Below are positions 11,601 through 14,856 of a DNA stretch of 45,130 bases, piece by piece. Location of the stretch: NCBI GenBank assembly GCA_003599735.1, contig QZJI01000004.1, positions 1 through 45,130 on the forward strand, given 5' to 3'. This stretch comes from Dehalococcoidia bacterium (GTDB lineage Bacteria; Chloroflexota; Dehalococcoidia; UBA2979). Position 1 is the stretch's first letter; every line of letters starts with the position of its first letter. Made by a program: the position numbers and the translations under genes. The notes beneath the pieces are model-generated. The model saw only the letters and a list, made by a program, of their open reading frames with translations. It made no database searches and had not been told where the DNA came from.

Positions 11601-12167
11601 TTAGTGCTTGTGTCCGCCACGGTCGAGTTTGCCCGGCAGCTTCTGCGGGCCGAACGGTCCGGCGACGCCCGCGACCCCCACGCGTGAACGCGCCGTAGGC
11701 ATCGATGTCGTGAGGGGTTGGCGATCCTGCGTCTGGCCGTTCGGGTAACGCCCGCCGGTCGTCGCCAGGTAGCCCTGCGCCTCACGCGTCAGCGCGGCGC
11801 GGTCGCGGTACATCGTCTCGAAGACGTAGACGGCGTCGTTGTAGCGGCCGCCGGCCTGGATCGCCTGGTAGGGGCACGCCTCGGTGCAGAGACCGCAGTA
11901 CATGCAGATGCGGAAGTCGATCTCGTAGCGGTCGATGTTGAGGGTGCCGTCGGCGCGCGGGCTGGTCTGAACCAGAATGCAGCCGTCCGGGCAGGCCTGG
12001 GCGCAGGTGGAACAGCCGGTGCAGCGCTCTTCGAACCAGAGGAGGTTCGTGCGGGCGCGGACGGGCACCTCGCGCTGTTGTTCGGGGTAATTGACGGTGA
12101 TGGCCGGGCGCACGACGTGCCGGAGCGTCACCAGCATCCCGCGGGCGATGCCGAGTCCGTACGCCAC
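11601..12167 (-). CDS. nuoI: NuoI-type 2x[4Fe-4S] ferredoxin subunit
   Basis: A 188-residue NuoI-like protein. Two [4Fe-4S] motifs are present: CTGCSTCAQACP (C49, C52, C55, C59) and CMYCGLCTEACPYQAI (C88, C91, C94, C98), with the NuoI-type N-terminal amphipathic region (GMLVTLRHVVRPAITVNYPEQ) that docks on the membrane arm in complex I. The C-terminal 70 residues (Gln/Pro/Gly-rich, ending in His-Lys-His) are poorly conserved in type. The start is GTG 12167; nuoG follows 69 bases downstream, so the two are probably co-transcribed. It would relay electrons from NuoG toward quinone. Confidence 0.85.
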   Translation of the reverse strand: MAYGLGIARGMLVTLRHVVRPAITVNYPEQQREVPVRARTNLLWFEERCTGCSTCAQACPDGCILVQTSPRADGTLNIDRYEIDFRICMYCGLCTEACPYQAIQAGGRYNDAVYVFETMYRDRAALTREAQGYLATTGGRYPNGQTQDRQPLTTSMPTARSRVGVAGVAGPFGPQKLPGKLDRGGHKH

Positions 12168-12338: not shown

Positions 12339-12365
12339 TTAGCACTCTCATCTAGAGAGTGCTAA
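12339..12365. promoter_or_regulatory. CIRCE operator (HrcA binding site), perfect
   Basis: TTAGCACTC at 12339-12347, nine bases, then GAGTGCTAA at 12357-12365: a perfect match to the CIRCE heat-shock operator TTAGCACTC-N9-GAGTGCTAA bound by the repressor HrcA. It lies 86 bases before the ATG at 12452 and should control the two-gene operon downstream. CIRCE normally controls groESL or the hrcA/dnaK operon, neither of which is here. A TAATAT at 12363-12368 overlaps its right arm and could be a -10. A small hairpin (12314-12328) lies just upstream. Confidence 0.92.
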
Positions 12366-12451
12366 TATCGGACAGCGGCTCGGGCAAGCCGCCTGACATT
12401 GGCGCCCGCCTGAGACCGCTCCAGCAAGGCTGTTTCAGCAAGGGGGGATCG

Positions 12452-12904
12452 ATGTCTATCGGCACCATCCTGGAGCAGCATCCGGCCCCGGCTTCGGTCG
12501 GCGCGCTGCGGCTGTTGCCCCACCACCAGGTTCACCAGCACTACCGCAACCTGTTATCGCTTTCGCCTGCCGATCTAGTTGCCCGCGCACGTCAGGATTT
12601 GCTCGCCGAGATACGGCTACCGGATGAACAGCGCCGAGAGGTTGTGTACCGACGGCTGAGTGCGTGGCTCGATATCGACGGAGAGGACGCGCGCATCCTC
12701 GCTCGCGCGTACGACCGCGCCGCTACTGACCTGCCTGAAGAGTTGCAGCGGTGCCGGCTTGAGGCGGAACAGGACGCGATCTTCAACGGCCTGAGTTTCA
12801 CCGACTTCCAGCGGCTGGCGCGGCTGGTGCCGTGGCTTCACGCCGAGCAAGGGCTGGCGATTATGGCTGAGGCGGTCGAAGCCGGCTGGTCGACCGCGGC
12901 GTAG
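12452..12904 (+). CDS. Unknown 150-residue protein, first gene of the CIRCE-controlled operon
   Basis: The family is not recognised. It is a soluble, mostly helical, acidic protein without signal peptide or membrane segment. Visible features: a His-rich stretch LLPHHQVHQHYRNLL near residues 27-41, a charged helix (LPDEQRREVVYRRLSAWLDI), then EEDAR-type helices and a C-terminal amphipathic helix ending EAVEAGW. ATG 12452 is preceded by AGGGGGG. An in-frame start at 12359 would place the CIRCE arm inside the coding region, so it is rejected. The next gene starts 20 bases downstream. Position under a perfect CIRCE site suggests a heat-induced function, perhaps as a chaperone partner or proteolysis factor; this is inference. 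Confidence 0.78.
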   Translation: MSIGTILEQHPAPASVGALRLLPHHQVHQHYRNLLSLSPADLVARARQDLLAEIRLPDEQRREVVYRRLSAWLDIDGEDARILARAYDRAATDLPEELQRCRLEAEQDAIFNGLSFTDFQRLARLVPWLHAEQGLAIMAEAVEAGWSTAA

Positions 12905-12924
12905 CCCTTCGAAGGGAGAACACT

Positions 12925-13848
12925 GTGGACTCCATCGTGCGGACTGAGCCGCTCTTCGAGACGCTTCGGCGTCCCGGCGCACTTGACGCCCCACTGTTGA
13001 TCGCGGCCTTCGGTGGCCCCGCGGGGCAGACGTCGGCGGCAGTCGTCGAGTACCTCGCGCAACAGTGGGACGCCCGCCCGATCGCGGACCTCGACCCCGA
13101 CTCGCTGTACGACTTCACCGTAGTGCGACCGAGCGTCCTCATCGAGGACGGGGAACGCGTGATCGAATGGCCAGGCGTGCGCTTCTGGCACGCCCGGCCT
13201 GATGGCGTTGACCGCGACCTGGTGCTGGTGGAGGGGCGCGAGCCACACTTCCGTTGGCAGCAGGTGGCCCTCGCTGTCGTCGAAGTCGCGCGGGCGCTGG
13301 GCGTGGCGGAATCGATCGTCCTGAACTCGTACGCCGCGGGCGTACCGCACACGCGACGCGTTCCGGTGACAATGGCCGGGGAGGGGGGAGCGTTCGCGGC
13401 ACGTGCGGGGATCGATCCGATTACGCCTCGCTACCAGGGGCCAGCGACGACGGCGATGACTCTGGGTGTCGCGTTGCGTCAGGCGGGTTTCAAGACGGCG
13501 AGCCTGAGCGCGCTCGCCCCCTTCTACCTCGCGGTCGACCCGAGTCCACACGCAGTGGCTGCGCTGATCGAGGTGATTGATCGCGGGCTCGGCACACGGA
13601 CATCTCTGGAGGCGCTTGAACAGTACCGCTCTGCCGTTGACGCGCAGGCCGTGACCGCGATGCAGTCGTCACCGGGGATGGCGCAATTCGTCGCCAACCT
13701 CGAGTGGCAGCATGACGAATCTCCCGGCATGCTCAATGAGCCGGTCCTGCGCGCAGAAGATGTGGTCGCCGACGTTGAGGCGCTGCTCGCGCGAAGAGAC
13801 GGCGACGCAGGCGGTTCGAACGCGGGCCCCACCAGGCAGGCACGGTAA
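12925..13848 (+). CDS. PAC2-family protein (proteasome-assembly-chaperone-like fold)
   Basis: A 307-residue protein of the PAC2 family. Family features: LIAAFGGPAGQTSAAVVEYL near residue 25, YDFTVVRPSV, LVLVEGREPHFRWQQ, the middle segment VLNSYAAGVPHTRRVPV, and DPSPHAVAALIEVIDRGLG in the C-terminal half. In eukaryotes PAC2 helps assemble the 20S proteasome; archaeal and bacterial relatives share the fold and their roles are mostly unknown. It starts with GTG 12925 behind GAAGGGAG, which is part of the palindrome CCCTTCGAAGGG at 12905-12916. It is probably co-transcribed with the unknown upstream gene under CIRCE control. Confidence 0.82.
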   Translation: MDSIVRTEPLFETLRRPGALDAPLLIAAFGGPAGQTSAAVVEYLAQQWDARPIADLDPDSLYDFTVVRPSVLIEDGERVIEWPGVRFWHARPDGVDRDLVLVEGREPHFRWQQVALAVVEVARALGVAESIVLNSYAAGVPHTRRVPVTMAGEGGAFAARAGIDPITPRYQGPATTAMTLGVALRQAGFKTASLSALAPFYLAVDPSPHAVAALIEVIDRGLGTRTSLEALEQYRSAVDAQAVTAMQSSPGMAQFVANLEWQHDESPGMLNEPVLRAEDVVADVEALLARRDGDAGGSNAGPTRQAR

Positions 13849-13905: not shown

Positions 13906-14856
13906 TTACGCGCCGTCGAGGAACCATCCGGCGTCGAGGGCGGCCTGGCAGCCGCTGCCGGCGGAGGTGACGGCCTGCCGGTAGACCGGGTCGCGCACGT
14001 CGCCGGCGGCAAAGACGCCCTCGATGTTGGTGGCGGTCGCGCCAGGGCCGGGGCCGCCGCGCGTGAGGAGGTAGCCGGCGGCGTCGGTGTCGAGGACGCC
14101 ACGGAAGAGGGCCGTGTTCGGCTGGTGCCCGATGGCGATGAACACCCCGGCGACATCGAGGTCCTGGGTGGCGGCGTCAGCGGTCGAGCGCAGTCGCACA
14201 CCGGTCACGCCAGCGTCATTGCCGAGGATGTCTTCGACCTCTTCGTTGAGCGCCAGCGTGATCCGTCCCTGCGCGACGCGCTGCTTCAACCGTTCCACGA
14301 GGACGGCCGTCGCCGAGAACTCCTCGCGACGGTGGACCAGCGTGACACCGCTGGCGATGTTCGAGAGGTCGATGGCGTCCTGCACCGCGGTGTCGCCGCC
14401 ACCGATGACGGCGACCGGCTGCCCCTTGAAGAAGTAGCCGTCGCACGTCGCGCAGGTGGAGACGCCGCGGCCGAGGAACCGCTGTTCCGCCGGCAGGCCG
14501 AGGTATTTCGGCGATGCACCGGTGGCGATGATCAGCGCGTCGCAGGTGTATTCACCTTCCGCGCCGGTGAGGCGGAATGGGCGCTTGGTCAGGTTGATGG
14601 AGGCGATTTCGTCGAACAGGATCTCCGCGCCGAAGCGGACGGCCTGCGCCTCGAATCGATCCATTAGATCGACGCCCAGCACCGCGGCGTGTTCGGCCGG
14701 CCAGTTTTCGACGGCTGACGTGGTGACGAGCTGGCCGCCCTTCTGGACGCCCGTGAGGAGCAGCGGCTGGTGTCCGCCGCGTGCCGCGTACAGTGCGGCG
14801 GTGTACCCGGCGGGGCCGGAGCCGAGGACGATCACCGGCGCGTGACGCGCAGTCAT
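13906..14856 (-). CDS. trxB: Thioredoxin reductase-like flavoprotein
   Basis: FAD-dependent disulfide reductase of 316 residues. It has the FAD-binding GSGPAGYTAALYAAR, the redox-active CATCDGYF (both cysteines present), the second dinucleotide-binding loop GGGDTAVQDA, and the C-terminal FAD motif GVFAAGDVRDP. The segment after the second Rossmann strand reads VHRREEFSA; NADPH-specific enzymes usually have HRRxxxR here, so the last Arg is replaced by Ser. This may weaken NADPH preference (inference). It lies 6 bases downstream of the MobA-like gene and ends the long minus-strand run. No thioredoxin gene is adjacent. Confidence 0.9.
   Translation of the reverse strand: MTARHAPVIVLGSGPAGYTAALYAARGGHQPLLLTGVQKGGQLVTTSAVENWPAEHAAVLGVDLMDRFEAQAVRFGAEILFDEIASINLTKRPFRLTGAEGEYTCDALIIATGASPKYLGLPAEQRFLGRGVSTCATCDGYFFKGQPVAVIGGGDTAVQDAIDLSNIASGVTLVHRREEFSATAVLVERLKQRVAQGRITLALNEEVEDILGNDAGVTGVRLRSTADAATQDLDVAGVFIAIGHQPNTALFRGVLDTDAAGYLLTRGGPGPGATATNIEGVFAAGDVRDPVYRQAVTSAGSGCQAALDAGWFLDGA

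Follow-up and report, generated by a model that had tools for sequence, protein, structure and literature searches.

Comparative analysis of the window, by which we mean the whole 45,130-nt stretch of DNA, makes it very probable that a two-gene operon coding for a small helical protein (ORF1) and a protein of the PAC2 family is controlled by HrcA. The argument draws on a CIRCE operator that is conserved with PAC2 in six genera and, separately, with ORF1 in three families, and that disappears where the genes do, and on the presence of hrcA in the genome. The regulator HrcA, the CIRCE operator and the PAC2 family are all known already, and the ORF1-PAC2 operon is a lineage-specific extension of the known HrcA regulon. 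Control by HrcA and CIRCE is well established for groESL and the hrcA/dnaK operon, and HrcA regulons are usually small and restricted to the classic chaperones. The operon and its surroundings comprise the following features.

12339 to 12365, forward strand: perfect CIRCE operator (putative HrcA site), located by pattern search and kept with the operon in relatives
12339 to 12368, forward strand: candidate sigma-70-type promoter within the operator, read off the sequence
12366 to 12451, forward strand: 5' leader from the operator to the ORF1 start, with 12388 to 12451 unusually conserved in the genus
12452 to 12904, forward strand: ORF1, 150 aa with an ATG start, all-helical as modelled, a new family linked to CIRCE in three families of the class
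12925 to 13848, forward strand: PAC2-family protein (PF09754), 307 aa with a GTG start, in a CIRCE-linked paralog clade
11601 to 12167, reverse strand: divergent NuoI-like ferredoxin gene, flanking and outside the unit, kept in G001 and G004 without the unit
13906 to 14856, reverse strand: convergent thioredoxin-reductase-like gene, likewise flanking, outside the unit and kept in G001 and G004 without it

The operator, TTAGCACTC-TCATCTAGA-GAGTGCTAA, has no mismatch to CIRCE and is the sole match in the window at up to 3 mismatches, with none arising in 100 dinucleotide shuffles. Across the genome from which the window comes (G000; 82 contigs, 2.0 Mb, about 70% complete), three CIRCE sites with up to 3 mismatches were found, versus none for a reversed-pattern control; the other two stand before hrcA-grpE-dnaK (C66:7493) and groES-groEL (C5:2279). 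The initial annotation had described a perfect CIRCE operator followed by an unrecognised 150-residue protein and then a PAC2-family gene, and all three elements were borne out, the PAC2 gene matching PF09754 with E=1.3e-36 (126.9 bits against a curated cut-off of 25.8). The hrcA gene, whose absence had been named as an argument against the proposal, is encoded in this genome (PF01628, E=3.8e-40) under a perfect CIRCE of its own. As in the known HrcA/CIRCE regulon (groESL, hrcA-grpE-dnaK(J)), the operator is the identical TTAGCACTC-N9-GAGTGCTAA, hrcA accompanies it in the genome, the site precedes the first open reading frame (by 86 nt, to the ORF1 start), and such sites also stand before the chaperone operons in this genome; the targets here differ, being a PAC2 paralog and a new helical protein. 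An additional HrcA target, rpoH, is known in Geobacter (PMC545781). The operator may also hold a promoter, since TTAGCA (12339-12344) is followed, after an 18-nt spacer, by TGC-TAATAT (12363-12368). The third base past CIRCE is a T at 86-88% of groES, PAC2 and ORF1 sites, a preference not shared by hrcA or groEL2 sites.

The unit comes and goes as one block. In two genomes of the same genus (G001 and G004), nuoI directly adjoins trxB, and the operator, ORF1 and PAC2 are all absent between them. The start of the NuoI-like gene lies only 172 nt from the operator on the opposite strand, so that the operator could be thought to serve this divergent gene, or to be a chance palindrome, with the ORF1-PAC2 pair a bystander. 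This is highly improbable: in those two genomes the operator is gone along with the pair while nuoI is retained, which assigns it to ORF1-PAC2 and not to the nuoI-like gene, and in other genera it is kept with PAC2 where no nuoI is nearby. The neighbours of CIRCE-PAC2 elsewhere are methyltransferase and aminotransferase genes, an acyl transferase, thiD-like and peptidase S11 genes, or a biotin carboxylase, and because they differ among genera, synteny does not account for the association of CIRCE with PAC2. A phage or defence origin of the unit was also considered and rejected, with no PHROGs or PADLOC match and no viral contig.

For a survey of the Dehalococcoidia family to which the genome belongs, every CIRCE site with up to 3 mismatches was collected from 36 genomes (115 sites) and the downstream genes were named by tblastn. 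Nearly all sites (113/115) precede hrcA-grpE-dnaK, groES-groEL, a second groEL or PAC2, and the two left unassigned both carry 3 mismatches. Apart from ORF1 and PAC2, the classified CIRCE targets in the family are all chaperones or their regulator hrcA. PAC2 is a CIRCE target in 12 genomes belonging to six genera (g1, g3, g6, g7, g9 and g10), one of the genomes, G010, has only a degraded copy of the gene. The initial annotation had proposed heat-shock (HrcA/CIRCE) control of the pair, to be checked by the presence of CIRCE before the same genes in relatives; with the site conserved before PAC2 across these genera and before ORF1 in three families, comparative genomics strongly supports that such control operates. 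The operon is patchy, occurring in 6/17 genera of the family, and is therefore dispensable. PAC2 is found without ORF1 in genera g6, g9 and g10 and in G024, so that joint action of both proteins is not required.

A second groEL under CIRCE, with no groES detected alongside, occurs in most genomes of the family (L109, L113, L116, L119 and others), and no such site was among those of the incomplete genome of the window. Double CIRCE-like sites precede hrcA in genus g8 (L125, L161, L164). A degraded copy of the operon in G010:C4 (L052:4806-5700) has kept CIRCE, but its ORF1 and PAC2 are disrupted or carry internal deletions; in G024, the other member of that genus, CIRCE-PAC2 is intact.

Genomes of the family hold up to five PAC2 matches each, and the CIRCE-linked ones form a paralog of their own. 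In a maximum-likelihood tree the 11 intact CIRCE-linked PAC2 proteins cluster, the CIRCE label changing twice on the tree where shuffled labels change 10.3 times on average (0/500 shuffles as low), and the cluster stands apart from the main PAC2 clades without CIRCE. Three rows without CIRCE (G009, G011 and G019, upstream of which no site was found even at up to 6 mismatches) are nevertheless placed within it, where they sit on a long, modestly supported branch. When a profile of the clade was run against 44 family genomes, 15/15 intact genes of that paralog, from six genera (378-452 bits), were preceded by CIRCE with 0-2 mismatches, and none of the next 15 PAC2 loci examined (329 bits or less) had CIRCE upstream. 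The profile had been built without genomes G368, G326, G338 and G364; all four proved positive and carried a perfect site, so fresh cases were correctly predicted by the association. Two other groups of PAC2 paralogs in the same genomes are without CIRCE.

ORF1 is tied to CIRCE independently of PAC2, as judged from the upstream sequences of its homologues. Searching 393 genomes of the class with a profile turned up close homologues in three families: f20 (16 genomes), f1 (four) and f50 (one). A CIRCE-like palindrome lies upstream of all the intact ones (21/21), in 17 of which no PAC2 was seen nearby, and of none of the eight distant ORF1 paralogs examined. The f20 homologue is preceded by pheT and faced by rplT, with no PAC2 in the flanks, and its operator is mostly TTGGCACTC-N9-GAGTGCCAA or GAGTGCCAG, with near-invariant arms and a variable mid-spacer. 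Among the HrcA sites predicted for Desulfovibrio, variants of this type appear at groESL (PMC545781 Table 8). The reversed-pattern control over the same ORF1 loci was run at a looser limit of 5 mismatches only and gave 9 matches, so that the case for ORF1 rests on the fixed position immediately before the gene and on palindromic conservation and not on the count. Some f20 homologues are preceded by two CIRCE-like palindromes in tandem, spaced 43 or 82 nt apart (L241 and L242; L240). Distant paralogs of 160-194 aa without CIRCE (L054:1333-1815, L055:5057-5641, L056:4664-5173) belong to an unnamed family and carry a PWWKFW-like C-terminal tail (KPWWKFW, KPWWAFW, KPRWKFW).

For ORF1 itself, searches of Pfam and NCBIfam up to E=1 found no family and those of PHROGs and PADLOC no match, and it matched none of the Pfam/NCBIfam profiles of known heat-shock families (Hsp20, DnaJ, GrpE, Hsp33 and similar). 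Its homologue in G006 likewise has no Pfam/NCBIfam family, and that of G054 gave only a match below the cut-off (E=0.31). ORF1 shares 66-74% identity with two relatives in the genus and is separated from the PAC2 gene by 20 nt. The dN/dS ratios among members of the genus, 0.05-0.25 for ORF1 and 0.11-0.20 for PAC2, are rough owing to high, near-saturated dS; with values of at most 0.25 both are under purifying selection and are therefore real genes. An AlphaFold model from a two-row alignment predicts ORF1 to be all-helical (pLDDT 82). Searches with this model gave at best E=0.1 in Foldseek and Z 7.9 in VIA-align 2, scores within the range of unrelated helical proteins, and hence no fold family is claimed. 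A PDB profile search with ORF1 matched a TetR helix stretch only (E=0.062), which was taken as noise.

The closest solved relative of the PAC2 clade, by profile search of the PDB, is Rv2125 of M. tuberculosis (5UN0; E=1.2e-59 over about 245 residues), with weak archaeal matches to 3GAA and 3VR0; a structure prediction for PAC2 from a two-row alignment reached pLDDT 37 and was left unused. The protein belongs to the same PAC2 fold family as the actinobacterial Rv2125, Cgl1923 (2P90), 2WAM and SCO1997 (3E35), and differs from them in forming a paralog of its own under CIRCE, its host genomes having yielded no 20S proteasome. It also shares the PAC2 domain with eukaryotic PAC1-PAC2 and the archaeal PAC2-like (Pba-type) assembly chaperones, but without an HbYX tail or a proteasome partner that could be found.

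The membership of the PAC2 gene in PF09754, together with the Anbu-like peptidase genes found in part of the family, could be taken to mean that PAC2 is a true, heat-induced assembly chaperone of a proteasome or a proteasome-like peptidase, and the initial annotation had drawn a link to proteasome assembly. This is very unlikely. The 36 family genomes yielded no 20S proteasome, and a search with PF00227 gave no match in the 70%-complete genome of the window and only weak matches in family f1, of which the two read closely (G001, G003) represent a 250-residue Anbu-like peptidase beside an Alpha-E gene. Nor does the distribution of PF00227 track that of CIRCE-PAC2, which is present without a PF00227 match in G013, G027, G033 and G002 and absent despite one in G001, G004, G009 and G018. 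The C-terminal HbYX motif, as in archaeal PbaA, was seen in 0/11 PAC2 C-termini in the alignment, and deletion of Rv2125 reportedly does not impair the proteasome. The proposed link to proteasome assembly fell away on these counts, and 'proteasome assembly chaperone', judged from the genomes, is not supported as a functional name and should not be applied here. The Anbu-like peptidase next to Alpha-E was located in same-genus genomes at L256 (653-1423 and 1489-2073) and in L253.

In HrcA systems generally, the repressor depends on GroEL for its activity, and repression is lifted once GroEL is titrated by misfolded clients. ORF1-PAC2 would accordingly behave as a class-I (HrcA/CIRCE) heat-shock operon: without stress, free GroEL, acting here presumably as it does elsewhere, would keep HrcA active and HrcA bound to CIRCE would block transcription, whereas misfolded proteins occupying GroEL would cause HrcA to be released and ORF1-PAC2 to be expressed with hrcA-grpE-dnaK, groESL and the second groEL. 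If the operator carries its own promoter, HrcA would compete there with RNA polymerase. PAC2 would represent a dedicated stress paralog clade, distinct from the two PAC2 clades without CIRCE, and ORF1 would have become an HrcA target independently of it. As their most likely role, the two proteins may hold or steer clients for GroEL/DnaK, without ATP and without a proteasome.

Membership of the regulon makes a quality-control role of some kind for ORF1 and PAC2 plausible, with about even chances, and HrcA control combined with such a broad role is a fairly probable joint reading. The specific ATP- and proteasome-independent holdase or assembly role is offered tentatively, as is the suggestion that ORF1 and the CIRCE-linked PAC2 are heat-shock chaperones or assembly factors of a new class that works without a proteasome. 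The products might instead be HrcA-controlled regulators or adaptors, with ORF1 tuning HrcA or GroEL, for example, or PAC2 binding a metabolite or RNA. The regulon does take in hrcA itself, and ORF1 is predicted to be a small helical domain of a kind that often serves protein-protein contacts; however, profile searches with ORF1, its homologues and PAC2 detected no DNA-binding or enzyme family, and the other classified CIRCE targets except hrcA are all chaperone genes, so that we consider regulators or adaptors rather unlikely.

No record of a PAC2 gene or an ORF1-type protein as an HrcA target was found in the open-access literature, nor any work there treating the HrcA regulon, CIRCE and Chloroflexi together. 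A conserved extra target of HrcA offers a strong genetic clue to what two uncharacterised families do, and the placement of ORF1-PAC2 under the chaperone switch points to an undescribed arm of the protein-repair response in uncultured Chloroflexota. Bacterial PAC2 proteins carry a proteasome label, though no 20S proteasome seems to be present in these genomes. A chaperone function, if true, would make bacterial PAC2 proteins part of the GroEL/DnaK network and would suggest that the PAC2 fold is a general assembly chaperone that was recruited to proteasomes in archaea and eukaryotes. The conserved extra target predicts induction alongside groESL and interaction with unfolded clients or with GroEL/DnaK, for which an in vitro approach is feasible despite the uncultured hosts.

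The leader between operator and ORF1 gave no RNA family above the gathering score in Rfam and a non-significant RNA fold (z -1.5). Its segment 12388-12451 is 92-94% identical in two relatives of the genus by BLAST, against 69-73% at the DNA level for the ORF1 and PAC2 genes, and occurs, among the genomes searched, at the ORF1-PAC2 operon only, a conservation that may possibly reflect a second layer of regulation.
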